The notes below the pieces were generated by a model. It saw nothing but the letters and a program-made list of their open reading frames with translations. It was not told where the DNA came from and ran no database searches. Source: Metaphire vulgaris (lineage: Eukaryota > Annelida > Clitellata > Crassiclitellata > Megascolecidae). Taken from it: DNA of 64,000 nucleotides. The first letter of the stretch is position 1. Each line of letters starts with the position of its first letter. This document shows positions 17,856 through 64,000 of the stretch, piece by piece. The DNA lies in the NCBI GenBank assembly GCA_018105865.1, contig CM030845.1, positions 16,098,776 through 16,162,775 on the forward strand, read 5' to 3'. A program made the translations under genes and the position numbers.

Positions 17856-18898
17856 TTACTTTTCTTCTGTCATTGATTTACACGAGTCACGAGAAATCTG
17901 CTTTGCTATCAATCCTATAGGCAATTCCAGTTGCGACACTTTGCATTGTAATATCATGCCATGTCTCGCTTTGTGGCCATAAACTTTTGAACTGGCGGCA
18001 GTTATATCTTTGATTGCTCTTTCTACAGCTTGTGCATGGCACGTTATATGAGGCAGAAGGTTTGTCAGAAGTAAGTTGCTCATAAGCTGGATATCTGGAC
18101 TTGTATCACGACCTTCTTGTACTGCTAAGCATGGCTTTAGGAAATACAGCTGATCCCAGTTTAGGTCTCTTCCTAATAGTTTCATCAATATCCAAAACCT
18201 TTCCTGAAATGGGTAAGAAGTTAGCTATAGGCAGGTCTTTTGGATCACAGTAAAGAACTGATGCAATTACACCTGAAGACGATGAAGGACCTGTAGTAGT
18301 TCCGCCATCTAGTGATGCAAAGTACTTTCTAAAAGGAAAGTTCATTAAAATGCAGCATGCACACAAGCCACTGGAAGGGCCTTCCTAAACTCTTTTCCAA
18401 CCTTCAGATGATTCCATTAAATTTTCCAGTATTATTATTTGTACCATCGCATGCTAAAGCTGGAAGGCTTTCTGTTGAATCTGTATCATTTATAATAGTC
18501 AGGATCTCCTTAGCAACATCTTCTGATTTACTACTGCTAGGTACAAACATGATCTATATAGTGATCTCCTGGAAAAGATACAATGATAAAGTGTTCTTCC
18601 CTTATAGTCCTTCGGAACCCTGAAGCATTTACCCACGTAACATCCTGCTTTCCATCAAAACCAATTCATTGTAGTTTCTGCTTCGCATCATTATGCTCAA
18701 CATTAACATTCTTCCTCAAAAAATCCTTTGGCGTCGCAACTTAGCCACTGTTGCTGGAGACAACATGTTAAAGTCTTTAATAACTTCATTAGCAATAAGG
18801 CATGCATCGCGGTCACTTAATTTGCCGCGACCAACTGATTTCCAGCCTTTTCCAGCCTTGAGGTTTCCACAGTATGCTTTAAAAACATCCCCACCCAT
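17856..18898 (-). pseudogene. Uncharacterised transposon-borne protein, frameshifted
   Basis: Minus-strand pieces in several frames run in order. The first starts MGGDVFKAYCGNLKAGKGW and GKLSDRDACLIANEVIKDF, with SPATVAKLRRQRIF. Next come IGFDGKQDVTW, LACDGTNNNTGKFNGIIRRL and GRPFQWLVCMLHFNELSF. A segment with FASLDGGTTTGPSSSSGVIA and a tail to 17856 complete the order. To my knowledge similar proteins occur in many copies in invertebrate genomes without a named domain. Here the gene lies inside an inverted-repeat element, suggesting it is that element's own ORF. Multiple frameshifts make it non-functional. Confidence 0.55.
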
Positions 18899-33173: not shown

Positions 33174-33217
33174 GTTGATACTGACGATCAGCAGACGATT
33201 TATATTTTCACGATTTT

Positions 33218-34231
33218 ATGAGATATCAATCTGAAATGGCAGTTCTCAGCAATATTAATTTCTGCAAGAAAGCTATTGTTGTCTTGTCAACTTGTACAAT
33301 TGTCACCTTGTTATTAGTGGCCAGGAATGATTTAATTTCAAATTTTAAACTCATTAGGACTTCGAATTCAAGTGTGACTACATCTGGATATGTGACAATA
33401 GGAGCGGTTACTGGCAGACTAGGAAATCAGATTTTCAACTTCGCCTCTCTGTTCTATGTTGCGGTACAAACAAGGCGAGAAGTCGTTCTATTCAATGGTC
33501 ACGCTGCTCGTGAACTGGAGAAATATTTCAGTCTCGGGGTTAGAAGAATCAACAAACCTTGTCCATGTTTTCAAATCCCTACAAATTTGGCTAGCAAAGA
33601 CATAGAGGAAGCAATGAGAAGCCACAAAGCCACTAACAGCCAAACGATAATTGTATTACATGCAGCGTTTTCAAACTGGAAGTATATTCAAACCGTACAA
33701 GATTTAGCTAGGACTCATATAAAATTCCGTCAGAACATTGAAGACTCTGCCAGAGACTTTCTGAGAAAAAATATTCCAAAAAGATGGAATGAAGGACAAT
33801 TTATTCGCATTGGAATTCACAGCAGAGGCGGAGACTTCTTGGACGGCTATTGGCGTAATCGCGGTTACACGACAGCCACTGAATCTTATTACAAAAAAGC
33901 GATGAAATATTTTACTGATCGATACAAATTGGTTCAATTCAACGTCGCATCAGATGATGTGAAATGGTCTCGCCAGCATATAACGTACGATAACCAGTCA
34001 TCCTCTGTTAATGTGACTTATTCTGAGAAACATTCACCTGGACAGGACATGGCCATTCTGTCTCTATGTAATCATTCCATCATTTCAACTGGCACTTACG
34101 GATGGATGGCGGCGTGGTTTACAAACGGAACAACAGTCTAATATTCCAATTTCCCACGCAAAGGATCCCATAATGCAAGGCATTACCATCCTCCCGATTT
34201 CTTTCCATCATATTGGATACCAATGGAATGA
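33218..34231 (+). CDS. Galactoside alpha-1,2-fucosyltransferase-like (GT11), one in-frame stop near the end
   Basis: A single coding exon encodes a type II Golgi-type glycosyltransferase that would transfer fucose from GDP-fucose in alpha-1,2 linkage. Visible are a short cytosolic tail, a membrane anchor at residues 18-35, an N-glycosylated stem, GRLGNQIFNFASL at 66-78, the donor-binding HSRGGDF at 201-207, ASDD at 244-247 and the C-terminal DMAILSLCNHSIISTGTYGW at 277-296. The usual GT11 motif is HxRRGD; Gly replaces the second Arg here. A TAA (34139-34141) follows residue 307, but the same frame continues with 29 well-matching residues to PSYWIPME and TGA at 34229-34231, as in the 14.5 kb copy. 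Either a recent nonsense mutation, a polymorphism or a base error. Start at 33218; ATG 33236 is equally possible. Confidence 0.85.
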
Positions 34232-35860: not shown

Positions 35861-36903
35861 CACTAGCGTCGCCACGGGGGGGCAAATGGGGGCAAGTGCC
35901 AACCTGCCCCAGACCACCTACCAGATTCGCGCAAATCCGGCGAGAAAGTTTTCTGTGAAGGGAGGCAGGGGTGGGTAAGGAATCTGACACGCTAGCCCCT
36001 TTGCCCCCCAACCAAAAGTTCCTGGCAACGCACTGCAAACAGGCTATCAATTATATAATATTTTTGTTTTCTATAGAATTGTCTTACAAGAAACCAGCTC
36101 TCTTAAACCCCTTCTTATCTCTCGTTCGATTTTTTAGACATTTGACAGAGAACAGATTTCTGAAAGATTTTGTATAGTGTCCTTTCAAATGGCTCACCAT
36201 TTTTCGGGGCATTTCGAATGCTCTAGAATAAAATTCAGGCAGAATATATTGAAAATTCTAGTACGGTTTGACTCAGCTAAGCTGGGGACACAAGAAAATG
36301 TGGTTCTAATTTGTTTCATCAATCTTCTGAATTTTGCATATCCTAATCCTTGCATTGTCATATGTTAAACAGGGTATAAATTATATAACATGTTTGTGGT
36401 CTATAGAACTTGAGATACAAGAAACCAGCTATCTCTAGACCCTCCTTATCTCTCATTCGATTTTTAGACATTTGACAGACAACAGATTTCTGAAAGACTT
36501 TGTATAGTGTCGTTTCAAATGGCTCACCATTTTTCGGAGCATTTCGAATGCTCTATAATAAAATTGAGGCAGAATATATTGACAATTCTAGTACGGTTTG
36601 ACTCAGCTAAGCCGGGGACACACGAAAATGTGGTTTTAATTTGTTTCATCACTCTTCTGAATTTTGCATATCTATAGCCTACTGTAGCAATAATCCTTGC
36701 ATTGTCCAATGTCAAACAGGCACTAGCGTCGCCACGGGGGGGGCAAATGGGGGTAAGTGCTCCCCCAACCTGCTCCAGACCACCTACCAGATTCGCGAAA
36801 ATCCGGTGAGAAAGTTTTCTGTGAAGGGGGCGCGCAGCGGTGGGTAAGGAATCTGACACGCTAGCCCCTTCCCCCCAACAAAAAATTCCTGGCGACGCCA
36901 CTG
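35861..36903. mobile_element. Composite element: two hAT-like MITEs bracketing two satellite units
   Basis: Left MITE at 35861-36035 and right MITE at 36721-36903 are closely similar (CACTAGCGTCGCCACGGGGG at one end, GACGCCACTG or AACGCACTG at the other). Outer flanks carry ATCTTAAA exactly (35853-35860 and 36904-36911). Inner flanks carry CAAACAGG exactly (36036-36043 and 36713-36720). The inner 680 bp are two tandem units. The outer octamers show that the whole block moved as one. Confidence 0.85.
36036..36720. repeat. Two tandem satellite-like units of about 330-347 bp
   Basis: 36036-36365 and 36366-36712 are highly similar (for example TTTGACAGA(G/C)AACAGATTTC and TAGTACGGTTTGACTCAGCT in both). 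The unit junction has TAAACAGG, the same spot where the MITEs have CAAACAGG. Confidence 0.85.
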
Positions 36904-47660: not shown

Positions 47661-47951
47661 TGGAACTGCTGGAGAGAGGTACAATGGCTAAATTGGATGA
47701 TTATTTCCATAAGAATCGTGCTTTTCTCGAGGAAATCATCGATCCTGACTTTGGATTGATTGACAATCTGCTATCCAAAGGAATCCTCAAAAGGAGAGAA
47801 ATGAAGGATATCGAAGTGAAAGATAACTACTACAAAAGAAACACGCTTCTGTTAGACATTATATCGGAAAAGAAAAGAATTTCAGAATTCTGTGACGCAC
47901 TCAAAAATACAGGACAAGAGCACGTCGCCAACTATCTCAAAGCAGGTGCAG
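47661..47951 (+). CDS. CARD exon a1 of the CARD/TRADD-N-like gene
   Basis: Encodes a death-fold CARD of about 80 residues: FLEEIIDPDFGLIDNLLSKG (helices 1-2), ILKRREMKDI (helix 3), RNTLLLDIISEKK (helix 4) and FCDALKNTGQEHVANYL (helices 5-6), the last being the standard CARD ending. The acceptor ATTACAG at 47654-47660 gives phase 1; it has a weak pyrimidine tract because a MITE ends just upstream. An internal ATG (47684) could instead be the gene start. Donor at 47951|GTGAAA or 47945|GTGCAG, both phase 1. About 30 percent identical to exon a2 (53.8-54.1 kb) by eye. CARDs mediate homotypic assembly of apoptosis or immune complexes; partners unknown. Confidence 0.75.
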
Positions 47952-50900
47952 GTGAAACTGCCTTTTGTTATCATAATGATCATAATGGTAATATTAAGAC
48001 ACGACTCTTCTCTCGATACAGTGGCGGACCTAGGGGACGGTCCGGCCTGTGTGGCACTTTTTCAGGGGTGGCATTTTTTGTGGTGAAATAAATACATTTA
48101 TGAAGGTTTATATTGTCTGCCACAAAAAGCGACTGGCAGAGGCGTAGCGAATATCCGGGCCTCCGGGGGCGAACATACGATGGCGAAAGAAAGGTCGTCA
48201 CTATCTACTATTTTTGGGGAGGGGCAAATGGCAAATTCTGTTACCGCTCCGGACGGCATAAAACCTTGGCATGCCGCTGTCTCGATAGATTTGCTAACCA
48301 TATCACAAGATATTCGGTAGGACTTTCATTTTGTTGTTGCCCCCCGTTCTTGTACAGCCATTGGCGCTAGTGTATAGTATGAAATGGCTGGGAGGCGCCT
48401 ATTTCGAAGCCTGTAGATCAAACTTGAGACGCCAATATTGATTATTCTTCCACGATTTGAAGCAATGAAGATGGATACACGCGAAACTGGTTTCGTCTGA
48501 AATTTTTTTTAATTCGCTGAAATTTTTACACATCTATACGCGGACTCTTCAATAGGTCCTCCATTGGCAAATGTCACACAGCGAATTAATTATAAAACTG
48601 TGTTTTTCTTAACTTCTATAAAACCTGTTGTACAATGAACTAGTAATCTTAATGGAAAAGTTGCAGTATTTCTTCAACAATAATTGTTTCGTGTTTGCTT
48701 CTTGTGAGCTAGTATTAATTTAACCATTTTCTCAGTTTAGAGAAAAGGAATTGCATGGAATTAACTATTATGTGGACGAACATCGCTTAGAATTTATTTT
48801 ATTACAATGAACTTAATAATAATTTCTGTTAATTTTAGTGACTTATTGACTTAGTGACTTCACAAGAACTGCCCGTCACTTTTCTCTGGATTTTCAATAG
48901 TTTTGGCAATTTTTATTTATGAAAAAGACTAAAAAAATCGACTGTGAAAAAACTTATTGGCTTTTTACGTAGCGATCAATACTTTATATGACACCGAATG
49001 TTTATCGCAAACATGGGCATGGGTCCATTTTTTAAAAACCCGACCCATCATCATTCAGACCAAACCCACGAAAGTAATAGAGTTACTTGACCCAACCTAA
49101 CCCACCGATATATATTCCAATTTACCCAACCCACCATAAACATGGAAATGTCTGACCAAACTCAACCCAGCACACGGGTGTACTCATCCCATGTCCATAT
49201 CTGGTTTATCCTTCGTAGAAGACAAATCCTAGTAGAAGTTGAATTATAACGAAAATATAATACGAAATAAGAACTATTTAAAAGCAGCACTCAATCAATG
49301 AAATGCTTATTGTTAATGTTTCTAAATTGCCAAAATCGTAGGCAATTGGGGGGCGGGGCGTAAGAACTTTGACAGTTATCGGGAGTCACAAAGTAAAGAC
49401 CCTGCCTGATCGATCCCGTCGTTTGGCTATGGCTCTTCCACAATGCACACGTACGGTAGACTAAGCGCCTTAAGAATTAGCTGCTACTGCGGATTCTATT
49501 TTCGAAAGCGTCATATATAAAGACTCATGAGCAGAGGCGGATTTACATTTTGGAGGCCCGGTGCAAATATTTCCATGGAGGCCTCCGGCGCCATCGTGGT
49601 CACTTAAAAACAGTGTTTATTCTATGCCCTTTTGGGGGATTCATCCCAAAATGAAAAATTCCTCCCAAAATTTTTTTTGGAATATGTTGCATGGGGAGAT
49701 GGAAATTTCCCCCCCCCCAAAAAAAATAAGTGGCGACGGGGAATTTTTTATTTTTTGGGAGAATGGAGAGGGGAAAAATAAGGAAGCTTGTCACAGAGCG
49801 TTTAAGAAAGGAAAACGGGCAGATGACCTTTTTTCTTTTTTTTTGTTTTTTTGCGCGTCAAGACTTTTGAGATGTCAAACCTTGTCTCTCCAAACATTTC
49901 AAAATCCCCCCAATGTCAAGGTGGCTAGAAAGGTGGCTAGAATAAACACTGCTTAAAGAAGTAAAAATACAACAAACGTCATTGAAAAATGAAACAATTA
50001 AATGCCATTAACTTCAACTCAAATAAACTTGCATTGAATTTGCAGTCGTGCAGCCAGTGTACAAGAACTGGGGCACGGTCGACCTGTCGTCTGTTTATAA
50101 TATTAGTAGTGTACTGGTAACACACCGTAATTGGTAATTAGTCTAAATTGTCTCAGCATGTCGCCGACGACTTTTTGTTGTAGCAAAGGCCTCCACTAGC
50201 TGTGCAAAGTCGATTGTCTTCACGAGTTCATTTTCAATGTTCAGTATGGCTAAGGATGACAGCTTATGATCTGTTAGATATTAATGCGCTAAAATCCACG
50301 TGTTATGGCGTATAAATTAATTTAATTTATTTAAGTGTTATTTTAACTTATTTCTTATGAATTTAATCATACACGAAGATGAGTTCCGTACATTTTTTCT
50401 ACAAAAACACTAAGTATAACTAAGATTTGTAATCGTTTGCCAAAAGGTCACCGTCACGGCGTTACGCATTTTACGGTAAGACAAATGAGTGATGGCGTTA
50501 GTCTCTAATAGTCTATATGCAACTATATGCATTGCCATTCCAAAGGTACGGAGGCATACAAATACACCTACTCCTCCCATTTCCCGCGCTTCTTGACCGG
50601 TGGTACCGTGGTAAGAATTGACCGTCGAGACACACTGTACAGGCACTCAGGTTGAGTCATGCAGTACCCCTAATCTGCATAATAATGCAAGAGGCCGGGC
50701 GGCTACGACCGCCGGTGGCCCGGTGCAACCGCCGCCGGTCACTCGGCCAGAGTCCAGCCATTATGAGCCATACCATTAATTGAGGTCAGCTAAACCGGGG
50801 TATATGAGATATAAGCTTTCTTAACATAGACTCATAGAGCATGCATTAAAGTGCATTTCAATACTAAATTATTACTAATCCATGTCCAAACATTACTAAT

Positions 50901-51121
50901 GTCAAACGCTACAACATTCATGTATATATATATATCCGAAAATAAATAACTTTAAAGAAACTAATAATTAAAAGTCTTTAAAAAATTATTATTAGAAAAG
51001 GGAGGCCCCTAAATTTGTATTTTGAAGGGAGGCCCGGTACCGATGCACCACCTGGTACCGTGGTAAATCCGCCTCTGCTCATGAGGTTTTTTACTTTCTG
51101 TTGCTTACTTATTCTACTCAG
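47952..51121. other. Intron 1, filled with mobile elements
   Basis: Holds a CAGTGGCGGAC hAT-like end (48019), a CAGAGGCGTAGCG end (48134), an ACCCAACC-rich block (49020-49200) and a complete hAT element (49532-51077). No exon recognised in between. Confidence 0.55.
49532..51077. mobile_element. 1.5-kb hAT element, perfect TSD, 44 bp before exon b1
   Basis: CAGAGGCGGATTTAC and GTAAATCCGCCTCTG termini; CTCATGAG exactly at 49524-49531 and 51078-51085. The interior has GGAGGCCCGGT blocks near both ends and no transposase frame. Confidence 0.9.
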
Positions 51122-51427
51122 AGCGCAGTTCGCAATTGAACGGAGAATGGCCTTTGACGGAGAGAGAGATTCAGCTCATGGACAGCAATTATGAATCTCT
51201 GGTTGATCTTTTGGATACGTGTGATCTAGTCGGTCGTCTCTATTCAAACGGAGTCATAAACAGAAGACATTTGGATTTCATTTCGTCGAAATCAACGACG
51301 AATGAGAAGAACAAAGCTCTGTTGGAGATCCTCTCCAGATGCAGTCTACGATCCTTTGACAAGACGATCATCTGTCTTCGCGAGTCCAATCAAGACCACA
51401 TCGCACAGATCCTGGAAACAGGGGAAA
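51122..51427 (+). CDS. CARD exon b1
   Basis: 102 codons with a GEWPLT opening, YESLVDLLDTCDLVGRLYSN (helices 1-2), GVINRRHLDFISS (helix 3), NKALLEILSRCSL (helix 4) and TIICLRESNQDHIAQIL (helices 5-6), a CARD pattern. Acceptor TATTCTACTCAG (to 51121) and donor GGAAA|GTAAGC, both phase 1. Exactly the same length as exon b2 (306 bp) and about 46 percent identical by eye count. The frame runs on into an ATC/ATT microsatellite (51439-51501), which is intronic. Confidence 0.8.
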
Positions 51428-51456
51428 GTAAGCACGATTTATCATCATCATCATCA

Positions 51457-51502
<46 letters not shown>

Positions 51503-52791
51503 AATTTATATATCACAGTAAACATGGCGAAGACCAAAGTCAAGAGCACTTTCACAGAACACTTATATACACTATATACCAGTGTCGATATGTAGTCGGG
51601 GCAGGATGGATCATGTAAGGCGCGGAACGCAAACCAACATCGTACGTATTGTACGTATTTTATTTCCGATAATAAAATACGTATAATACGCGTACGGTAA
51701 AAACTCGTATATTCAACTACTGTACGTTGCCACACATTATTAACATGGCGTAGCTACAGATGTTTATAGATAATAATTATTAGAGAACCACGGAAGTATG
51801 TTCGCCTTTGACGCCGCTGTCATCTAATTTTTTCGTGCATTGCGCGTGTTTTATTCTTGGACATAAAATGCGTCATCATCAAGTAGTTGCTTTATGTCAG
51901 CTCATTAGCGACAATAGCTAGACACAAAACTTTTCCATTTATCTTTTTCCGTTGTTAATCTCATTCCATCTATTATTGTCATTTGATATCTTTCAAAGTC
52001 TTCTTTGATGTTATCTATCCACTTTTTCCTGGGTCTTCCTTTTCCTCTTTTGCCTTCTTTGTATGTGTAGAGTGCTTTATATGGGAGTCTGTTGCTTTTC
52101 ATTCTATTTACGTGTCCATACCATCTAAGTCTTTTTGTTCTGATTTTATCTATTATTGTCTATTTTCTATTATTGTCTATTTCATCTTTAGTCTTTTCCT
52201 GATGTCTTCATTTCTTATTCTTTGTAATCTGCTTACTCCCAATATCTTTCTCAAGCAACTCATTTCTGCCGCCAACAGCCTGTTTTCATCTGCTCTTTTT
52301 AATATCCATGTTTCTGATCCATAAAACATTTGTGGAACAATGATAGTGTCAGCACAAAAATTCAAATATACAACGCTATCAATAACACTATCATAAAATA
52401 CGTATATTGCGAGTAGTTTATTTCGTTATTAACGGTAGTATTTTGAAAGTATGAAGAACCAAAGCACTATTATGTATGATATACATCGTCTGAATGGGTT
52501 CTCGTATAAACCTCAAGTAAAGATATAACAGAAAATAGATGAATTATGAAGATGAAACCAGTCAAACCACCAAAGGAACTTTACAGTGATAGGCGAAAAT
52601 AAAATCGGTCTTGAAACTCAATTGTTTGCCTTCTCAATTAAAATAGTAATTCTAAGGTCAATTGCATAGTCTGGGCGAACTACATGTACCATCCAATTAG
52701 CGACTGATTTGGCCGATGATTCTATGTCCGACATTTAAGCTCTATAATCTTCGCCTTCGTTGTTCTTATCGCTTGGAGTTTGTTTCTGTAG
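51428..52791. other. Intron with microsatellite and RTE LINE relic
   Basis: ATC/ATT run at 51439-51501; an RTE-type RT tail on the minus strand at 51895-52365. No exon seen. Confidence 0.6.
51895..52365 (-). pseudogene. RTE-type LINE tail (minus strand, intronic)
   Basis: Minus-strand pieces MFYGSETWILKRADENRLLA, LRKILGVSRLQRIRN and, after shifts, KRGKGRPRKKWIDNIKED give the RTE tail order. It is opposite to the host gene, as tolerated intronic insertions often are. Confidence 0.7.
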
Positions 52792-53151
52792 CAATAGTAC
52801 GCGTTCATGCAACGCTTGAATGCGACAGATTAGACGAAACTGAGACACAGATAGTCAACGAAATGACCGAATTGCTGATGCAGAGGAATGTCTCCGCGGA
52901 GCAAGCTAACCGTCTTTTGGCCGCGGCTCAACTGAACATCATCGCCGTCAAGCGTGGACAGAGCATCGTTCTGTACGTCCGCTGCTGCCGAGAAGGCCAA
53001 TTGACTCGTCTGTGTCAGTTGATTGACAGTTTAGAGATGACGACAGTTCTAGAACAACTCTTCGCTCTTTTCGTTCAAAATAGGAAGGTCAAAGTTATTT
53101 CGGTAAAAATCTACGAGAGCGACCTCGCAAAAGCAAGGCAATCACTCGAAG
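52792..53151 (+). CDS. TRADD-N-like exon 1 (alpha/beta module)
   Basis: 120 codons with alternating strands and helices: IVRVHATLEC (strand), ETQIVNEMTELLMQRN (helix), LNIIAVKRGQSIVLYVRC (two strands), LTRLCQLIDSLEMTTVLEQL (helix), KVKVISVKIYESDLAKAR (strand, helix). The order and spacing match the N-terminal domain of TRADD, a ferredoxin-like fold. This is remote similarity that needs a profile test. Acceptor TTTGTTTCTGTAG (to 52791) is strong, phase 1. The matching end is GAAG|GCAAGC, a GC donor (53152-53153). The frame itself continues to 53194, so a GT donor at 53177 is possible but breaks the phase-1 pattern. Confidence 0.65.
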
Positions 53152-53778
53152 GCAAGCAATCATTAATTATTTCCAGGTATTTAGCATTCAGATAGGTTTC
53201 AGCAGAAAGTATCTTCATTGCTCTTTAGCTCTAATGGGCATAACAGCAGGCCTGTGGATAGGGGTACAGCCGGTACATTGTTCCGAGGCTCGTGGAGCTC
53301 AGTGGGGGCCCATAATGGGAAGAATCTTCTAAAATTAAAAACAATTTTTAATAGAAATACAATACTGAATGTATACTTCATGCGCTGTGTATAGGCCTAT
53401 ATGAAAAACGCTTTGTAGTCTTGTTTGACATAACCTTTATTTAAATATACATAAATTCGTGATAAACTTTGTATAAGGGCCCACACATCTTTGTACCTGG
53501 GCCCGAAGTTTCGCCCGGCGGTGATAGTGTTGCCGCTGTTGCGTGTATTTAAAGACACGTCCGTCTGACTTCTCCTTTCTAATCCGGGCAGTTCATGGCA
53601 GATAAAGTGCTTACTTTCACGTTGTATTCGGTAGGAGTATCATCAGTTTCATTGGACTGTATCAATCAGAATTCCTTGCAATGCACTGATCGTTGTTTGT
53701 AATACTCAAAAGAGATTTTCACTTTTACACTTAAACGATGTTCGATTAGAAGAATAAAAATTATCTGTTGTCATTTAG
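53152..53778. other. Intron
   Basis: Contains GC-rich GGGGGCCC blocks (about 53250-53560) like those of the short inverted-repeat elements elsewhere. No exon seen. Confidence 0.5.
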
Positions 53779-54132
53779 GATCAATGGTGACTATTTCAGT
53801 TGCCAATCTTTATCATCCTAATGGAAACCAAGAATCGGAAGTTCGGGATAAGAAATTGGATTCAGAGGAAGATCTGAGCAATGTATTTGACCGTCATCAC
53901 GATTTCATCGTTGATCGCATTCATCTGGATTTCTGTCTCAAGGAGACCCTGAGAACGCGTCTCTGTCTTACGAATAAAGCCATCAACAGAATCAAAGAGA
54001 AAAGGACCATTCGACAGAGGAACGAACTGATCATCAAATTTCTAACGCAGAAGCAAAAACTCAAGGAATTATCCGACGAACTTAAATTATCCGATCAAAA
54101 GCATTTGGCAAATTACTTGGAAAATGACGGAA
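53779..54132 (+). CDS. CARD exon a2
   Basis: CARD pattern: FDRHHDFIVDRIHLDFCLKE (helices 1-2), CLTNKAINRIKEK (helix 3), RNELIIKFLTQKQ (helix 4), ELSDELKLSDQKHLANYLEN (helices 5-6). Equivalent to exon a1; the closing LANYLE versus VANYLK is especially alike. Two phase-1 acceptors are possible: GTCATTTAG (to 53778) or GACTATTTCAG (to 53799). The second removes the in-frame ATG at 53784. Donor GACGGAA|GTAAGA is phase 1. Confidence 0.75.
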
Positions 54133-55403
54133 GTAAGAGCTTTAAAAATAGGCATTTTGTTTTCTGAACCGCATTACATCAAATTCCTGAATTCACAACA
54201 TTAAAAACTGACTGTTTGCCAGTCAAGCATGACGGAAATGCCGTGGCTGTTTTTCTTCAACACGCTAGACAAGGTTTCCTGGTTCTTCGCTATTCAAGCG
54301 TAAACGCTTAGCGGGCGCTATAATAATAATAATCACTTTAAGATATAAAGAGCGCAGGCGCAAGCTCCGTCAAACGTCTTAACAGAATCCAATCAAAAAC
54401 GATTATAAAAAAATCTCGTGACGAAGCCTTTTCGACTTGCCAATCACGTCGCCTTTTTAGCGTTCCAGACATACATATCTTCAAAATGATATCTATAATT
54501 AATGAACGTCATTATAGCAACGCACAGGGCATCGACTCATGACCAGTTAAAGCAATCGTAGTAAAAAAATAGTATGTATGCTAGTGGTAAGCAGTAAGCA
54601 CGTTGCCAGTCAAAGGTGACATAGGAGAGGATGGATAACTCTCTCTTTGGTGAGACCAAGATGACAATCACTTAGGTCAATATTGGTGGTACTCAAGGTG
54701 TACAACTTATTGACTGAAATTTACAATTCTCCACTTTTTATAAAATCAGGAGCATGGAAAACCTATTAACCAATGAGTTGGTAGATTTAATGCCAGTTAC
54801 TCGACGCAAAACACCGAATATGTTTAGCCGACAAAAAAAGAGATGTTGTGGAAATATTAAAGCCTATTCAAACTAAGTAAGTATTTAATACTCTTTAAGT
54901 ATTACAAAGCACGCTGAATGAAATAACACGTTTGAAAAAGGCGTTCGTCGAAAGTTATCTAATTTTTGATAGGTCTTTATACTTTTCGTAAAGTCTTTTT
55001 GGCATTAAGTAAAGCCAAACGTTGCCTCAAACCAGATAACAACAACAGAATTTAAGAGTGGTTTAGTAGGATCTGCCCTGTGTGAAAACCACTATGTTAT
55101 ACCCGGACATTCTTTGACATTATGGTCTTGCTGTGTAATGTTGTTCTTTGTCCTCTTGTCCTCTTGCATGTTTGTTCCTGTATTCTCCTTCTTTGTCTTA
55201 CGCAATGTCATAAATGTCGCATTCACTTCTTATACTCACTTCTACTTATACAGTACTATATTCTATACTGTCTACTCTAATCGAAACCAATCTAGTATCC
55301 TGAAGTACTTGTTTTTTTAAAGCGAATACAGCCACAATAAAGATGCATGCGGATATCAACACTAGTACGTAAATGATATAATTATTTATGTTTTCAATTT
55401 CAG
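54133..55403. other. Intron
   Basis: No exon, element boundary or repeat that I can support beyond a short AAT run at 54321-54333. Confidence 0.5.
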
Positions 55404-55709
55404 AATATAGCATAAAGTTTGGCGGAGAGTGGCCATTGACAAATAAAGAGGCGCTAACCATTCGCCGGAATTACAAAGCTCTTGTTGACGTCATGAAGTT
55501 TCACGACCTAGCTGTTCTTCTCTATCAGACGGGGGTCATAAACAAAGAACAGAGAGAATACGTTTTCTCACAGTCGGCGAAATGCGAGAAAAAGGAAGCC
55601 CTGCTGGAGATGCTCACCAGAAGCAGTCTACGTTCCTATTGGCAAACGATCCGATGTCTTCATCAGACGAATCAGAGCTACATTGCAGACTTATTTGAAA
55701 AGGGAGGAG
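55404..55709 (+). CDS. CARD exon b2
   Basis: Equivalent to exon b1: GGEWPLTNKE opening, YKALVDVMKFHDLAVLLYQT, GVINKEQREYV, KEALLEMLTRSSL, TIRCLHQTNQSYIADLF. Acceptor TTTTCAATTTCAG (to 55403) and donor GGAG|GTAAGT, both strong and phase 1; 306 bp like exon b1. The frame at 55388 opens a few codons early, inside the pyrimidine tract, which is not coding. Confidence 0.85.
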
Positions 55710-56281
55710 GTAAGTGCTGCTGTGTAGCTCTGTTCTGATATATACTATATATAGTTAGCCTAATTGGCTATACAGATGCATCTGTTTCTATTGACATTGT
55801 AGCCAATTAAATATCAATTATCATGGCCGTGGACAAATATATTCATCAGTATATAAAATCGAATTATTTCGAATGTAATAGATGATCCCAAAAGTAGACC
55901 CATCTACTCTTTATATCGCCCACAGTCATTAATGGATCAAACGCTGCTGCAATGAACTGCAGTGAACCGTTTGCTGATTACCCGAACCAGGGACACGACT
56001 AGAACGCAACCAACATTTCTTTAGCTCAACTCCACATATACCCATGTATACACGCACAGAGCATACTGTATATGTATGCATGTATATATTGTAGCCTATG
56101 TATATCGCATACATAGGCTACAATAAGCTATATATTATATATACATGTGTTTTAAAAGAATCCGTTAATATTAAAGCCTTCGATAAGAGCAGTCATTTAA
56201 CGTTTTTGCATTATACTATATATATATATATAATATATATATAATTATATATATAATATATAATTATATATATAGACCCTA

Positions 56282-56326
<45 letters not shown>

Positions 56327-56475
56327 ATCTGACACAATCCAATCAGAGTGTCTGCCCCAACTTTAGTATCCTCAATTCTATTCCTGGTATATTTACTGTA
56401 AATAGCAAAGAAACGTCAAAGAATTATGACCTAACAAATATTGCTTATATTATTGTTTGTCGAATGGTCGCATAG
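55710..56475. other. Intron with AT repeats
   Basis: Imperfect TA runs at about 56215-56322 able to fold on themselves. No exon seen. Confidence 0.6.
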
Positions 56476-56841
56476 TTGTGGTTCGTGTTGATGCGAAACT
56501 GCAGCGAAAGAAGCACTTCGACGCTAAACTTCTCGCATCCAACATTGTCTCTCAGCTCAAAGCAGTCCACAAAGGGCTGCATGGACTGGTCGATCTGCAG
56601 ACATCCGAACATTCATCACAGCCGAAGTTAATCGGAGCCAAGGAAAGTCGAGACATTTCGCTGTATTTTTCCTGTAATCAATCGAGAGAAATCGACTTAC
56701 TAGAACAGTTGGCGAAAGACGGGAATCTAGAGAAATCAATTGAATCTCTGTTTAATCAGTTGATGTTGTCCGAAGTCAGGATCAAAATAGAACTGAAATG
56801 GACATCGAAATCCTTTGCCAGAAGTCGAGAAATAGTCGAAG
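56476..56841 (+). CDS. TRADD-N-like exon 2
   Basis: 122 codons: VVVRVDAKLQRKK (strand), DAKLLASNIVSQLKAV (helix), LIGAKESRDISLYFSC (strands), EIDLLEQLAKDGNLEKSIES (helix), EVRIKIELKWTSKSFARSRE (strand, helix). Same secondary-structure order and same ends as exon 1 (opening VxVRV; closing ARxxxEG). Acceptor CGCATAG (to 56475), donor GAAG|GTTATT (weak but in the matching place), phase 1 on both sides. 366 bp, equal to exon 3. Confidence 0.65.
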
Positions 56842-57912
56842 GTTATTTTACGCTTTTCAGTCTCTCTGTCTTTGAGTTCAATAATTATTACATGCCTCAC
56901 GCACATTCATCAGAACTGTTAAAATGCAATGATTTTCAACTCTTTAAAACTATCTAAATTTCAGCTTTCAAGCAGTATCTTCAGCATTGGCGTAACCACG
57001 GTTGGTCCGCGGGGCCCGGTCTCCCTACTTGGGCTTGAACTGGTTCTGGAAATTGTACAAAACTGTTCAGTAGTTGGGTGGGGGGGTTAAGGGTAGGCAG
57101 CATGAGGTCGAGGAGAATGTACGAATGAATTTGAAACTTGAAAGGGCTCGACACTTGATTTGACGTTTTTTGCTCGTCACAGTATTTTTATTTGGGAAAG
57201 TTGACGTGTCCCCCCTTGTTCCGGAATCCCTGCTACGCCACTGATTTTCGGCCAGCATGAGACAAAACAAGAGAGCAAAGGATAACTGTTTCAGGTCTAG
57301 ACTTCAAAGGAGTCAGTCCATTACGGGTTTAGCGGATCCCAGTATTCGCGATAGCCTACATGTAGGCCCTATATAAGTAACAATAGCTATATGGACTTTC
57401 ATAGCAAGAATATTCAAAGGTGTCAAACGATCGTAAGTAGGTGAGTAAGTAAAATCTCGTTAATTCCTATAGCGCTTTCAAAAGTAGCACCGAAGTTGCT
57501 CCTTATTCCTAGGTGTTTAATCCTAATATGAAGTATAGCTATAGCCAAAGGTGTGGATCATTCATGCAGGGTCATTTAATTCGAAGGGTCATTGTGTATG
57601 GGACGTTACAATTATGGAGGAAATGATTTTTTAAAGAGAAATGCTTTGAGTTTGGATAGAAAAACTTGAAGAGATTTTGCAAGAAGTGAATGAAGTTGTA
57701 ACTTAGAAGTTGTTGTTTGACCATGTCATTCAATCGTCATTCAAATCCATCCGCCGAATTTATTTCGGCAAATGACTTAGCATAAGAAATGACAAGACAT
57801 ACTCTGGAGGTAGATATTGTATACAGTCTCGCATTCCCTGCTTTTGCATATTATTATCCAAATTGAGATTGCGTTGAAACATGTTCATTTTGCGTCATTT
57901 TTGCAAATTTAG
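56842..57912. other. Intron
   Basis: Carries a hAT-like pair of ends (CATTGGCGTAACCACGG at about 56985 and CTGCTACGCCACTG ending 57243, TSD not matching) and a LINE/SINE tail unit (57440-57620). Confidence 0.5.
57440..57620 (+). repeat. LINE/SINE tail family copy (intronic)
   Basis: AAGTAGGTGAGTAAGTAAAA, then TCTCGTTAATTCCTATAGCG, CCGAAGTTGCTCCTTATTCC and TGCAGGGTCATTTAAT; inverted copy at 21385-21545 and a shorter one at 16775-16870. Confidence 0.65.
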
Positions 57913-57956
57913 CGATCAGTTCGGAAACTCGGATTTCACAGCTGACACCAAACACA
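57913..57956 (+). CDS. 44-nt micro-exon (predicted)
   Basis: Framed by TTTTTGCAAATTTAG (to 57912) and ACA|GTGAGT (57957 on). Read after the phase-1 end of TRADD-N-like exon 2 it gives ISSETRISQLTPNT with no stop. It turns phase 1 into phase 0, exactly what the next exon needs. Supported only by splice consensus and phase arithmetic. Confidence 0.5.
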
Positions 57957-58693
57957 GTGAGTGGCTATCTCATGCATGCCCTTTGTATTTTGCCTATTAC
58001 AGTATGACAGCTAATCGAATACTAGTTTAGTAGATTGGCAGTTTATTGTTTTAGTATTTAGCTTACTTTAAGTATACATAGAACCTAATTATAAAGCACA
58101 GAGATGTTCTTGTATTGTATATATCTATTCAAAGCTGTTGATTGACACATTGAATAGTTCTGTCCAGGCCAATAGATTATACCAGTACATGACTGACAAG
58201 CAAAAAAAGGTTATCTCGAAAATCGGTGGGCCTATTTTCATGATGGGCCGGGGGGCTACAGCCCCCTTAGCCCCCGTCTTCATACGGCCCTACACTCGAG
58301 GTGAAAGGGCCTAGGAAAGTGTAACAGTTTGTGGCGGAAGATGAGGACCCCACCGTGACGTCACACTTTAAGCATATATAAAACCATAAATATACCTCAT
58401 AGGAGGTATAGTAAAAGCGTTTGAGAGAGGACTTTTTTGTTCATTAACACTATTTTGCCCGAGATACATAACATTTAAGGACTCACTTCTATTTGCTATC
58501 ATTGGCGGAAGTTCAATATCTGTTTTGCAGCTGAAAATTGAACGAGAAACTCGAATGTATTAAACAGAAAACCTTTCAGTTGTTTGCTGTATTTGTGAGA
58601 GTATAATGTGGATTTTGAAACTTTGCAGTCGATCAATTAATACGCTAAGGTCCGGTTTCTTCGTTAGTTTCTTCAGCAAATTAATTATTTCAG
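57957..58693. other. Intron
   Basis: Contains a TGACAAGCAAAAAAAGG motif at 58194 within GGGCC-rich element sequence. No exon seen. Confidence 0.5.
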
Positions 58694-58886
58694 ATTGATG
58701 TTCTACCGCTAGAAATACTGGAAGTGATAATACAGAAGTCGCTCGCTCTCCTCTTCGTACAAAGAAGGACGAGAGGAGTCGTCCGAGATGAAGACGTCTT
58801 CAGACATTTTGCAGAAGTCGATTACTGTTGGTTCAAAAGAATGACAAATCGGAGATTAAAGAAAAATCGTTGGACTTATCTGTCAA
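58694..58886 (+). CDS. F-box-like exon (predicted)
   Basis: Acceptor TTAATTATTTCAG (to 58693), phase 0; donor TCAA|GTAAGA, phase 1. Encodes IDVLPLEILEVIIQKSLALL, then a basic loop and VFRHFAEVDYCWFKRMTNRR. LPxEILExII, followed about 35 residues later by a V/A-x-x-x-W-centred helix, is the pattern of an F-box (SKP1-binding). The insertion between helices is long and the match is weak, so the name is tentative. Micro-exon plus this exon total 237 nt, keeping the overall frame. Confidence 0.5.
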
Positions 58887-59080
58887 GTAAGACAGATGAG
58901 TTCCTATGTTATCTTTTTTTCAAAAGCTATGAATATAATAGCTATCATCACAACTATTAAGTGGGTCCTAGATTTGTTGTAATAATTAATTAATTGATAC
59001 AGCCATTAATAATGTTAATTTGAAACTATTGCAAAAATTAAGCAAAGAATAAGTGCAACTGTGCGATAGTGCATCATCAC

Positions 59081-59135
<55 letters not shown>

Positions 59136-59607
59136 TTCATCTTCATCATCATCATCATCATCATCGTGCTCTATGTCAACTCTTTAGAGTCAATAGCCAT
59201 AGACAGAAAACGTTTCCAAGAAGTCCTGTTTTCTGCTAATCTTCTTCTTTTTGTGATTGAAATTTCTTCCATGTTCTTATCTTATCTGTTTCCGTCCATC
59301 CACTTTTTCCTGAGTCGTCCACTTCCTCGTATTCTCTTCCATTTGTACGGTTGCCTACTTTCATTCATTCCATTGACGTGTCCATACACCAGGTAAGTCT
59401 TTTGCTTCTAATGTTGCGATAGTGCAATTAAGTGATTTGCACTTAAATTATTCTTATGTTACATTTGAAAGGCAATTATTGTCTGATTGCACTTCTATAT
59501 CACTTTATTTTGTAACGCTTTTACTTAACTCAATGGCTCAAGTTTTAATGCTAATGGGCTTGGCGACAAAAATTCTGCAGAATTCGAAGCCAATTCAGTT
59601 ATGCATT

Positions 59608-59694
<87 letters not shown>

Positions 59695-59711
59695 ATTTTC
59701 ATCATTTGCAG
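58887..59711. other. Intron with microsatellites and an RTE scrap
   Basis: ATC run at 59078-59165; minus-strand RTE LINE tail at 59170-59425; CT then TA runs at 59610-59691. No exon seen. Confidence 0.65.
59170..59425 (-). pseudogene. RTE-type LINE tail scrap (minus strand, intronic)
   Basis: Minus-strand translation with GRLRKKWMDGNR-like and KTSWKRFLSMAIDSKEL-like ends recalls the RTE tail at 51.9-52.4 kb. Short and decayed. Confidence 0.5.
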
Positions 59712-60041
59712 GCATTTGTAAAAGTCATGGTCATGGTCAACTACTGTTATCGTACAAAAGAAATCGACAATTCTTTGACGAGAATTTGATTCTACTTCGA
59801 GACGACGCTTTAAGGCGCCTGAAACTCTTCGACCATTTGAGTGACATTGAGTGCGCCATGATGGCAAGAAAGTCTTTCGTCGCTGTGAAGAAGAAGAAGA
59901 AAACGCACCCTGCAGCGTACGAATTGGACCCGTCGTTCGTTGTGAATGCCGGGGATGACGATAGGCAGAGTGACTTCATCAGATGCTTCGTCCAATCTGA
60001 GCAATGTAACAGAGCGGCAAAGGTCTTGGAATACGGCGGAG
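59712..60041 (+). CDS. Divergent CARD exon 3
   Basis: 110 codons. SYKRNRQFFDENLILLRDDA (helix 1), LRRLKLFDHLSDIECAMMAR (helices 2-3), a lysine-rich insertion (KKKKKTHPAAYELD), then DFIRCFVQSEQCNRAAKVLE (helices 5-6). This is a CARD-like layout with an extra loop of about 25 residues between helices 3 and 5. Acceptor TTCATCATTTGCAG (to 59711), donor GGAG|GTCTGT, phase 1 at both ends. In the module order it takes the place of the two CARD exons of the earlier units. Could be another death-fold type. Confidence 0.6.
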
Positions 60042-60946
60042 GTCTGTTCTCCCCTTTATAATCGACTATAAATTTTGATGTGATATTTACTGAAATCGAT
60101 GTATACGATTAATAGCGATTAATAGAAATATTACGATTATTTCTGTAGTTGAGCATTAATTTGCCATTCATTGGAGATGCAGTCGTCTTTTTAGTTCATG
60201 GCATGATGCTGGTCGGCTTGACATTAATTGCGTAAACGTAGCACAGGTTATATTTCAATGAGAGCTGGTTGACATTAGCTATGGGGCTGTCCATTAATTA
60301 CGTCAACAAAATAGAGGGAGGGAGTTTGAAAAAGTTTGACAGTTGTTGACAGGAGAAGGGGGGTCAATAGAAGTTGACGTCAACAATTTCATTTTTTACA
60401 AATGATAAAACAGGAAATTTAAGGGAATACTGTTTAATTAAATGGAAAAAGCCTGGCAAGCAAAAAGCAAGGTCATAACCACCACAGTATGACACTTGAT
60501 GAACAAAAGAAAGGGGAAGGGGAAGAGGTCTCATCGCTGCAAAAATAATAACTTTCTAAACTTTTTAGGGGGAACCGTCACTGGTCTTAGTGGAAGGGGG
60601 GTCAAAAGTTTTTGACATAATTATAGGGGGTCACTGAAAGTTGACAGTTGTTGACAAGAAGGAGGGGGTCAAACATTGCCCAAAATTGTTGACATAATTA
60701 ATGGACAGCCCCCATATTGTATCTCTAGCGATATTTTGCAGCGATTCCTAATTCATTTCATCGTATTTTGACAAGAAATATCCCAGATCTAGATTTATTT
60801 TAATTGTCTAAATTTATTTCTTTACACTGCTTTGCCCAGAAGACTTAAACAGAAGGGTTTTTATAAAAGGGTTTAGCTTTAACTAAAACATTTCTCCATT
60901 ACGTATAGGCCTAATATGTACACGGTGTATATGTATCTTAATTCAG
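60042..60946. other. Intron with a complete MITE
   Basis: Contains the GGGGCTGTCC MITE at 60293-60712. Nothing else recognised. Confidence 0.6.
60293..60712. mobile_element. GGGGCTGTCC-type MITE, complete
   Basis: GGGGCTGTCCATTAATTACG, then TCAACA at the left and its inverse at the right (TGTTGACATAATTAATGGAC, then AGCCCC). Contains repeated GTTGACAGTTGTTGACA-type strings. Half copy at 10882 and remnant at 29089-29203. Confidence 0.8.
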
Positions 60947-61312
60947 CTGCTGTTCGAGTCGAAATTAAGTGGCGAGTTTCAAACAGACCCGAACAGAGAA
61001 GACAATTTCTGAAATGGTTGAACGAACTGGAGAAAGACGCGAATTCCAGGTCAAAAGAAAAAACCGAGACACTCGTGAGGAGACTGAAGGTCGATGAAAT
61101 CGAGATTCTTAATTCAACGGACGACAGAGACGCCGTCGTTTGGTTTCGATGCAAATCGTCAAAGGCTCTGAGACGGATGAAGGACATGACACAGTCATCG
61201 GCTCTTGCTCGTCTCCTACGGCAACTGACCGACGAAGAATATCTTCATCCTGAAACCAAGAAATCCGTAAATTTGGACGACGATCAGTTGGAAACAGAAT
61301 TAGGTGACATCG
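60947..61312 (+). CDS. TRADD-N-like exon 3
   Basis: 122 codons: AAVRVEIKWRVSN (strand), EQRRQFLKWLNELEKDANSR (helix), VDEIEILNSTDDRDAVVWFR (strands), ALRRMKDMTQSSALARLLRQ (helix), then an acidic tail ending ETELGDI. Exactly as long as exon 2. Acceptor GTATCTTAATTCAG (to 60946) and donor ATCG|GTAAGC are good and phase 1. The gene continues downstream, but a gap begins 88 bp later. Confidence 0.65.
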
Positions 61313-61400
61313 GTAAGCGTCGATTCCAGGGTCATTCTGATGCTGATTCGATCTTATAGGGGCTGTTTAGTAACCACCTTTGAGATCCACCTAGGGGTGG

Positions 61401-61500
61401 NNNNNNNNNNNNNNNNNNNNNNNNNNNNNNNNNNNNNNNNNNNNNNNNNNNNNNNNNNNNNNNNNNNNNNNNNNNNNNNNNNNNNNNNNNNNNNNNNNNN
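61401..61500. other. Assembly gap (100 N)
   Basis: Exactly 100 Ns, probably a placeholder of unknown true length. Confidence 1.
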
Positions 61501-61545
61501 CCAGCGTTGTTACCACTCTTCTAACTTCCCGCCCCTGCAGTATAT
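61501..61545 (-). mobile_element. SINE head fragment beside the gap
   Basis: GTTGTTACCACTCTTCTAAC and TTCCCGCCCC match the SINE head on the minus strand. The gap may have formed because this repeat blocked assembly. Confidence 0.55.
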
Positions 61546-62521
61546 TCATAACTTAACTGAAACTCGTATAGTGCACAATAATATAACTTACGGGACAAAT
61601 TTAGCAACACTACAACTGACGACATAGGCAAAAGGAACATCATAGTCCACGGACGTCACACAAGCTCTGGTAGGTGGCAGAAGACATTAAGTCTCAAGGG
61701 TCACATTTTGCAAATACGTTATATTGTGCCATACACAACTTTTGATAACAAGTGCTTTTGAGAATTGAAGAAAAAACTTTTTCACTCCACCTTAAATTGG
61801 ACAACTCTGGGACACGTATGTGAAAATATAGACATATCAGTAGATTTTTCAATAATTTAAAGAGAATAGAGTTATTGCTTATTAAGAAAAAGCATCAAAA
61901 TTTCGTTAACGTGTTCAATGGCGATTAACTGAAGATAACTGAAAAATAATTAACTGTAACTGAAACTGTAACTGAAAAATGACAATAACTTTAACTGTAA
62001 CTATAACTGAAAAATAATTTCAATAACTTTAACTGTAACTGAAAAATAATCAATAACTGAATCCACACTGGGCGAAGGATATGGCCGGCGCTAAAGGTTC
62101 GCTGCAGTTTCCCAACTGGAATTCGCTGAGCTGTGCCGCCAATAAATGATTCTCTCATTCATTCTTCGGAATTAATTATAAGTGTAAAATACGTTCAATT
62201 TTGCGGCAACATAGCATTGCGGTATTAATAAAAATATTTAGTACTATGTGACGTCAAATTTCTGGAACGGAACCCCCCGCGTCGTCACACATCGTCACAA
62301 ATGTTTGAACTCCCACTAAGTGCGTGACGTCATTTATGGATGATTCCAAATGAGTAGCTTTACATGCCTGATTAATATGGTTGTTGAATGACATGGTATG
62401 GTTTTATAAAATATATAATAAACCAAGTTGAAGAGTGAGAAAGATTGACTTTGGGTGACTGAAATGCTGTCACATTTAATAGAACTAATGCAATTAAATT
62501 TACTGATATTGCATAGGTTCC
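61546..62521. other. Non-coding stretch with degenerate AACTG repeats
   Basis: TAACTGTAACTGAAAAATAA-like units between about 61920 and 62055. No exon recognised. Confidence 0.45.
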
Positions 62522-62560
62522 AAGAAGAAGAAGAAGAAGAAGAAGAAGAAGAAGAAGAAG

Positions 62561-62590
<30 letters not shown>
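62522..62590. repeat. AAG microsatellite
   Basis: About 22 pure AAG units; the leucine-run frame on the opposite strand is an artefact. Confidence 0.95.
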
Positions 62591-62591
<1 letters not shown>

Positions 62592-62769
62592 TTTGGAGCA
62601 AGGTCATAAGTGAACATCCCAGATTGAACTGTTCACAGAGAAATGCTGTACATATATTTTCCAGTGAGAATAGTGAAGTCTTGTCATCAGCGGCAATGAT
62701 TAATGTGTATCGTCAGGTTAGAAATGTCAGTAGAAAAATGCCAAAGAAGCGATCCAAAGGAGGTCAATA
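62591..62769 (+). other. Short open frame after the AAG run, function unknown
   Basis: In the lysine frame of the repeat, sequence stays open for about 58 codons (FWSKVISEHPRLNCSQRNAV, HIFSSENSEVLSSAAM and a basic KMPKKRSKGG end) to TAG at 62767-62769. An alternative reading is a short exon between TTTTCCAG (62663) and CAG|GTTAGA (62711). No homology recognised. Confidence 0.2.
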
Positions 62770-62834
62770 GGCCTATGTCCCATGTTAGTCTACTGAGTAA
62801 AACGTTTAGTCTATTTTGTCATCACTGAGAATAG

Positions 62835-63122
62835 GTAAAAAGGTAAAGGTAGGTTCCGTACTCGAGTCCGAACGATAGGTTGCGGCGCTTATCTCCGGTT
62901 TAGCGATGTAGGTGGTACAAGCCATTAGGTTAATCTGGGGTAGGTTGCCATTACTTTCCCCAGACCCACGTTTTATACCCCACAGATTAACGCTGCCCCT
63001 CATTTTGCCACAGCCTTCTAGCGAGCAAGACTAAGTCGACCTTATGGCTCCTGTGGGTATCGAACCCGCGACCTTCTGCTCTATCGTCTAGTGTCGTTAC
63101 CACTCTGCCAACTTCCCGCTCC
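62835..63122 (-). mobile_element. tRNA-derived SINE, near full length (minus strand)
   Basis: Reverse complement matches the SINE at 4298-4576 throughout. AGAATAG on each side (62827-62833 and 63125-63131) is a plausible short TSD. Confidence 0.75.
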
Positions 63123-64000
63123 ATAGAATAGAACTATGCAATAAGCGCAAATGAAATTGTAAAATTTCTCGTAGGCCTCTATAAAATGCAGTATTTTGCG
63201 GTGCTATGCAGAATTGTTGTGGTTTCTTTTTCCCACTTACCTTTTTTATCTTTTCAAGCTGATGCTCGGGTAGTCTAGGATCGTTGACGCTTGCACGATC
63301 GTCTATATAGTCAAAACAATGCAAGTTATGCAATGCTGTATTTATTTAGTTATTTAGCAATATTTTTCTTCTTAAGTCGCATTGCGCTATAATAACCCTC
63401 GAGCAATACCGGAAAATCCTTCGTCATAGTAATATTTTCCTAAGAAATGCTTACCATTTTCACTTTCGAATCTGCAAACCGCCAGTATAATCAGATTCAA
63501 TACAAAATCTTTGTCCGTCCATCGTCAAAATTGTTCACAATAAGTGAAAATAAACCTTCATTTTGCAAATAAAAAACTATGGCTATATTGTCTTACATTC
63601 ATGAGCGAAAACATCTTAAGTTTGGCAATCATCGATTAAGCCTATAACCAAGGTCTTGCAAAAGGTCATAGTCCACTCTCTTTCTTACTTAATCAAATAC
63701 AACCAAGATCCTTTCTAGGATTAACCTTAGTTGCCGAAGAGATAGCAATTTATTCAATTCATTCCATTAGACGTTTCTTTAATCTATAAATTAATTATTA
63801 TCATCATGCTCAATCTACTTACCATCATTAGCATCCGGGTGTGGGAGCCAACGATCGCTTAGGCCTTATGATCAATAGAAACTTTCCAGTCCATGCTATT
63901 TTAGTTACGGGAATTACTAGCACAAGCATACAGTATATTTAGACGTTCTGAAGCGTTTTATGACATGACATCTGTATTTCTTTCTCCATAATTTCTCCAC
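63123..64000. other. Non-coding stretch
   Basis: AT-rich, no gene, repeat or element end recognised. Confidence 0.45.

Follow-up and report, generated by a model that had tools for sequence, protein, structure and literature searches.

The window analysed here is a 64,000-nucleotide stretch of the Metaphire vulgaris genome (C14:16098776-16162775 of a 728 Mb assembly), and the subject of this study is a gene model within it that combines CARD-like and TRADD-N-like exons. Eight domain-sized exons follow one another on the + strand. As the initial annotation of the window had described, all have usable splice sites; all junctions of the model are in phase 1.

The Eight-Exon Locus

The model opens with a1 (47684..47951), a predicted CARD exon that includes the start codon and ends in a phase-1 donor, GTGAAA. 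The ATG at 47684 is the best start, and 47660 is merely a possible acceptor. A second predicted CARD, b1 (51122..51427, 306 bp), precedes T1 (52792..53151, 360 bp), a TRADD-N-like exon with a turn serine in the motif KRGQS. The order repeats in the second unit, which comprises a2 (53779..54132, 354 bp) and b2 (55404..55709, 306 bp), again predicted CARDs, and the TRADD-N-like T2 (56476..56841, 366 bp), in which Asp occupies the serine position. Farther downstream lie a3 (59712..60041, 330 bp), which is predicted to be helical and whose identity as a CARD is open to doubt, and T3 (60947..61312, 366 bp), a divergent TRADD-N-like exon that likewise has Asp where T1 has serine. Because T3 closes with a phase-1 donor, GTAAGC, the eight-exon model is incomplete and the gene should continue. 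The donor of T1 is GC (AAG followed by GCAAGC at 53152) and is identical in a near-identical copy of the locus; a GC donor probably also stands at the end of a T3 exon on C8 (L027).

This copy lies about 118 kb further on, and its exon-bearing blocks are 92-98% identical to those of the window. All eight exons are open in the copy, the splice sites, the GC donor among them, are preserved, and exon lengths are equal except in a3, which differs by a single in-frame loss of 3 bp. Across the eight exons there are 27 non-synonymous differences in 2059 sites and 21 synonymous differences in 569 sites, with zero stops (non-synonymous rate dN 0.0132, synonymous rate dS 0.0379, dN/dS 0.35). Per-exon counts are small: a1 has one non-synonymous and five synonymous differences, b1 has no non-synonymous difference, and a3 has six non-synonymous and no synonymous differences. 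Together with the intact frames and splicing, this ratio indicates purifying selection on coding sequence and not chance open frames. The eight exons are real coding exons. A third locus, C14:15960151-15982672, carries nine modules, the eight exons plus a propeller, in identical order and on one strand. Its T1 is split across two reading frames, so the gene there may be damaged.

A Probable Last Exon Beyond the Assembly Gap

The copy also shows how the gene is likely to end. A single exon of about 316 residues lies 885 bp after its T3 and has a phase-1 acceptor; its product matches the NHL family (PF01436) at 22.1 bits against a cut-off of 20, with one repeat recognised. The window lacks this propeller because an assembly gap of 100 Ns (61401..61500) falls within the last intron. 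Window base 61400 aligns to position 18685 of the copy sequence, while base 1 of the reversed contig C95 aligns to copy position 18684, with 95.8% identity over 2 kb. Given this contig-end continuity, the continuation of the gene most likely lies on C95, outside the window, where the final NHL-propeller exon occupies C95:198252-199207 on the minus strand. It is 97% identical to the propeller of the copy, on which the Pfam scan was done, and the two differ with a dN of 0.0110 and a dS of 0.0586 (ratio 0.19). Adding the C95 exon gives a predicted protein of about 1203 residues, as computed from exon lengths.

Past the gap, window positions 61501-64000 contain a short 78% match to the copy and otherwise do not continue the match; the scaffold may be misjoined at the gap after 61400. 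C95 measures exactly 200000 bases, C43 exactly 800000 and C69 exactly 300000, and these figures suggest that the assembly had been divided into pieces of round length. Another NHL-type propeller open reading frame (ORF) lies 12 kb past the window on the opposite strand (C14:16174874-16175812; L026 2099-3037, minus) and is about 43-48% identical in pieces to the propeller of the copy.

Domain Identity of the Exons

Profile searches divide the exons into groups of differing clarity. Pfam recognises CARD in a1 (2.3e-7, 31.1 bits) and b1 (1.5e-7, 31.8 bits) above the cut-off of 23.9. b2 falls slightly under it (1.6e-4, 22.1 bits), and a2 scores 14.1 bits, where VPS28 outscores CARD at 17.1. The families to which these exons belong are more uniform: at E <= 0.1 CARD is found in nine of nine aligned a-type and nine of nine aligned b-type sequences, a and b profiles match each other with a probability of 97.5%, and both match CARD8, Apaf-1 and CED-4 chains in the PDB. 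Exons a1, b1, a2 and b2 are accordingly read from their sequences as encoding CARDs. No Pfam model matches a3 at E <= 1, and comparison of a3 with the b profile reaches 58% over 52 columns, half of its length. A structure model of a3 was discarded (pLDDT 46).

The T exons are probably TRADD-N domains, a reading that depends on remote similarity. T1 shares 24% identity with T2 and 21% with T3, and profile comparison gives match probabilities of 98.5% for T1 with T2 and 72%, over 93 columns, for T1 with T3. TRADD, whose N domain has an RRM-like alpha/beta fold, ranks first among solved folds in the fold comparison of T1, tied with others, and the Pfam model TRADD-like_N (PF20694) matches 3 of 15 family members at 5e-4 to 5.3e-3, the best at 20.3 bits against a cut-off of 23.7. 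Elsewhere in the genome, TRADD-like_N matches above cut-off were recorded at C25:12761461 and C40:11190157 (+), both outside the clusters of this family and in open frames 1131 and 948 aa long.

The domain assignments of the initial annotation thus hold in part. CARD stands for the a and b families and is doubtful for a3; for the T exons, TRADD-N stays the most likely assignment, top-ranked although tied in fold, below cut-off in Pfam and with a DUF3696 match in a relative. The proposed third, reduced unit shares this mixed outcome, with T3 resembling T1 and the likeness of a3 to b confined to half its length.

A Family of Related Genes

The modules of this gene recur throughout the genome. 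Searches gave 129 matches for a2, 51 for T2, 42 for T3, 50 for a3 and 135 rows for the propeller, some of them pieces, as well as at least 150 each for b1 and b2 and 149 for T1 among the 150 matches scored. Their same-strand order is regular: among neighbouring modules, the pair a-b was counted 91 times, b-T1 78 times, b-T2 43 times, a3-propeller 36 times and T3-propeller 32 times. These counts used 127 of the 149 T1 rows and 107 of the 135 propeller rows; the second parts of split matches, rows that cross-match T2 loci, and weak rows, some of which had stops, were left out, and some of the several T1 rows that carry stops were kept. The module directly after T1 is a3 in 20 adjacencies, T3 in 11 and the propeller in 9. 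One-unit and two-unit genes coexist, the two-unit chains numbering 10 at a spacing of 12 kb and 17 at 40 kb.

Other arrangements use the same modules. Loci on C2 and at C8:3.29 Mb combine an a exon with b-T2-T3-propeller, and two loci on C29 read a-b-T2-T3. A paralog on C23 (L033, C23:13052001-13062000, minus) encodes a T1-type TRADD-N, next a CARD and finally a Kelch propeller (Pfam 1.5e-27), showing that the type of C-terminal sensor varies. At C90:89927-97686 (+), five b-type CARD matches succeed one another at intervals of 1.8-2.2 kb, and no match to any other module interrupts the series. Phase 1 predominates across relatives as well, with phase-1 donors at 29 of 40 exon ends (the other phases have 4/40 and 4/40) and phase-1 acceptors at 25 of 40 (11/40 and 8/40), two exons being counted twice among the 40. 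This excess fits an exchange of modules without loss of frame and, along with the one-unit and two-unit genes found side by side, is in line with the proposal of the initial annotation that units can be gained or lost in frame.

A T1 match within an open frame of 1938 aa was considered as a possible retrocopy and rejected, since the frame is a run of N; it is therefore no spliced genomic copy. A public protein search with the a1-T2 protein yielded no match among 8000 scored candidates, in a database possibly poor in animal proteins. A PDB search with a single sequence likewise returned no match.

The Serine Pattern in TRADD-N

The available text of Kaur et al. 2021 (PMC8195603) reports that TRADD-N significantly tends to occur in single copy between other domains, and proposes as a switch a conserved serine that follows a tiny residue in the beta2-beta3 turn. 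The present model, unlike that tendency, has three TRADD-N-like exons, and the serine is distributed among such exons by position. In an alignment of 38 T domains, the turn serine is found in all 8 first units, all 6 one-unit domains of T1 type, all 9 one-unit domains of T2 type and the Kelch paralog, 24 of 24 in total. It is missing from all 8 second units, of which 7 have Asp and 1 has Gly, and from the 6 T3 domains (all Asp), the serine-equivalent positions of T2 and T3 being those given by the alignment. In the T1 motif GQS the residue before the serine is not tiny, so the published motif is not strictly kept.

The same division appears among T2 loci genome-wide. T2 loci were first assigned to an Asp or a serine group by hit group; the residue itself was then read at 17 of the 19 Asp-group loci and at 11 of the 25 serine-group loci. 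The 17 second units have 15 Asp and 2 Gly, and all 11 serine-group loci read have serine. A T1 lies within 40 kb upstream, with no propeller between, at 17 of the 19 Asp-group loci, the other two being near contig starts; this arrangement occurs at 0 of the 25 serine-group loci. The count covered 44 of 51 T2 rows (the 7 weakest were excluded); T1 rows came from six contigs, and the propeller rows were used in part. T1 rows on C29, C113 and C18 are cross-matches to the T2 loci themselves.

Origin of the Two Units

The initial annotation attributed the repeated order to duplication of a whole CARD-CARD-TRADD-N unit. The measurements behind this proposal are accurate: b1 and b2 are both 306 bp and 45-46% identical, and the T exons measure 360, 366 and 366 bp; the likeness of a1 to a2 amounts to 28% identity. 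The relationships with other genes contradict it, however. b1 is 70-71% identical to the CARDs of one-unit genes against 45% to its own b2, and T1 shares up to 66% identity with other T1 domains against 24% with T2. Trees built from 29 b domains and 32 T domains agree, placing unit-2 types apart from unit-1 types with support of 98 and 100, and the second units of two-unit genes cluster together, adjoining stand-alone T2-type units. Because the units are closer to those of other genes than to each other, they appear to be old paralogs and not the product of a recent local duplication.

Nor have the exons within a unit always travelled together. For 12 genes, the CARD-b and TRADD-N trees reject each other, with log-likelihood differences (delta lnL) of 144 and 123 and approximately unbiased (AU) test p values of 1.9e-5 and smaller; the T1 of the gene at C14:15.96 Mb entered this test as a 64-residue piece. 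These conflicting trees argue that CARD and TRADD-N exons changed partners, by either recombination or gene conversion.

Proposed Function and Alternatives

These observations can be assembled into a model, which we favour by a modest balance of probability, where the gene has nine coding exons encoding, in order, CARD, CARD, TRADD-N, CARD, CARD, TRADD-N, a3, TRADD-N and a single-exon NHL-type beta-propeller, and belongs to a large family of intracellular immune or cell-death sensors with TRADD-N hinges and exchanged modules. Sensing, switching and CARD recruitment are proposed by analogy with published TRADD-N proteins that join a constant to a variable part. The propeller would bind a ligand, and the TRADD-N domains would form hinges between sensor and adaptor parts that transmit or restrain. 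Once released, the paired CARDs could initiate CARD assemblies or enter existing ones and draw in partners that bear CARDs, with the second unit adding valency. The first TRADD-N, the sole bearer of the serine in two-unit proteins, would be the hinge under regulation, the others serving as fixed spacers, while phase-1 exons would let modules move between paralogs with the frame intact. A wider generalisation can be offered only tentatively: about a hundred genes may form an undescribed animal receptor family that exchanged phase-1 exons and keeps one switch-serine TRADD-N per multi-TRADD-N protein, the extras being fixed by an Asp or Gly, which would allow valency and switching to be tuned independently. 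The initial annotation had suggested a multivalent scaffold, a view that overlooks the C-terminal NHL propeller beyond the gap.

Several points weigh against this sensor model. Its immune function is drawn by analogy from a single source, PMC8195603, as far as the available text of that paper extends, and the exon joins are predicted from genomic DNA. One NHL repeat is recognised per propeller, that of the C2 relative scoring 16.1 bits, below the cut-off of 20, and the two C29 relatives have no convincing propeller in the stretch examined. The second-unit TRADD-N domains form one clade, so the serine may have been lost just once, long ago, with no bearing on function. The identity of the T exons is also contested. 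None of those in the window matches TRADD-like_N in Pfam, the relatives that do are all below cut-off, and the two places in the whole genome where the model exceeds its cut-off are both outside this family. In the fold comparison HMG-CoA reductase domains come out level with TRADD, the T profile found no TRADD in the PDB but three weak arginine kinase chains, and T2 of one relative (L007, C45:350514) matches DUF3696 over 39 residues at 24.6 bits against a cut-off of 22; the T exon of a second relative matches DUF3696 below cut-off. This DUF3696 match is possibly a remote link or a chance match. The tie, the DUF3696 match and the missing TRADD chains would all be expected if the T exons were another ferredoxin-like alpha/beta domain, such as an ACT-like or DUF3696-like piece. 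We regard this as unlikely; in that case the architecture would stand and the switch reading would fail.

The extent of the gene can be questioned from both ends. It is improbable, in our estimate, that the exons belong to two head-to-tail genes, a1-b1-T1 and a2-b2-T2-a3-T3-propeller, and not to one protein. Both kinds of unit do occur alone, as the serine-group T2 loci illustrate, and T1 can stand directly before a3, T3 or a propeller; yet here the phase-1 donor of T1 meets the phase-1 acceptor of a2, no terminal exon is seen between them, and Asp-group loci have a propeller-free T1 upstream wherever they do not lie near contig starts. A scaffold that lacks a sensor, ends soon after T3 and merely gathers partners would suit the absence of a propeller exon from the window and from the C29 relatives after T3, but it is very unlikely, since the copy has its propeller at a matching phase-1 acceptor and the counterpart of the window continues exactly at the end of C95. 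Finally, the locus could be a decaying duplicate, a pseudogene whose exons remain open by recent common descent with the copy. The split T1 of the third locus and the stops in several genomic T1 rows illustrate such decay, but the dN/dS ratio, the stop-free frames and the kept splice sites make this highly improbable.

Neighbouring Sequences

ORFs matching glycosyltransferase family 11 lie at 33185-34138 (+) in the window (6.2e-25) and at L026 9524-10000 (minus; 5.1e-26), which places fucosyltransferase-like genes on both sides of the locus. A 330-bp unit forms about two tandem repeats of 90% identity at window positions 36037-36672.

Comparison with Known Systems

Searches of the literature by title or abstract found neither a CARD-CARD-TRADD-N protein nor a TRADD-N protein with NHL, which does not prove their absence. 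The kind of protein is known, in the form of TRADD-N expansions with propellers; the arrangement of paired CARDs, repeated TRADD-N, NHL propeller and one serine per multi-TRADD-N protein was not found in the literature searched.

Among CARD receptors, the profiles of the a and b exons match chains of CARD8, Apaf-1 and CED-4. Apaf-1 likewise ends in propellers. The present protein differs from receptors of the Apaf-1 type in that TRADD-N sits between its CARDs and its propeller, where no nucleoside triphosphatase (NTPase) domain was found among the modelled exons. The vertebrate adaptor TRADD, whose fold ranks first for T1, likewise couples this domain to death-fold domains. It does so with a death domain, whereas here CARDs are used, TRADD-N is repeated and a propeller is added.

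A further comparison is with the DED-TRADD-N-WD40 proteins of Branchiostoma, as described in the available text of PMC8195603. Both are large families within one genome, with a constant part made of death-fold domains and TRADD-N and a C-terminal propeller as the likely sensor. The lineage-specific TRADD-N expansions described there for Branchiostoma and other marine invertebrates usually employ DED, in contrast to the two CARDs per unit seen here, and the propellers here are NHL or Kelch, neither word appearing in the main text of that paper. Where the paper reports a tendency to single copy, proteins of the present family have two or three TRADD-N domains and so depart from it regularly. The genome supplies natural variants of this departure, in stand-alone serine units and in two-unit genes that combine one serine-type with one Asp- or Gly-type TRADD-N. 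These serine variants, with the conflicting CARD and TRADD-N trees, would make both the switch model and the exchange of modules among innate sensors testable in one genome.

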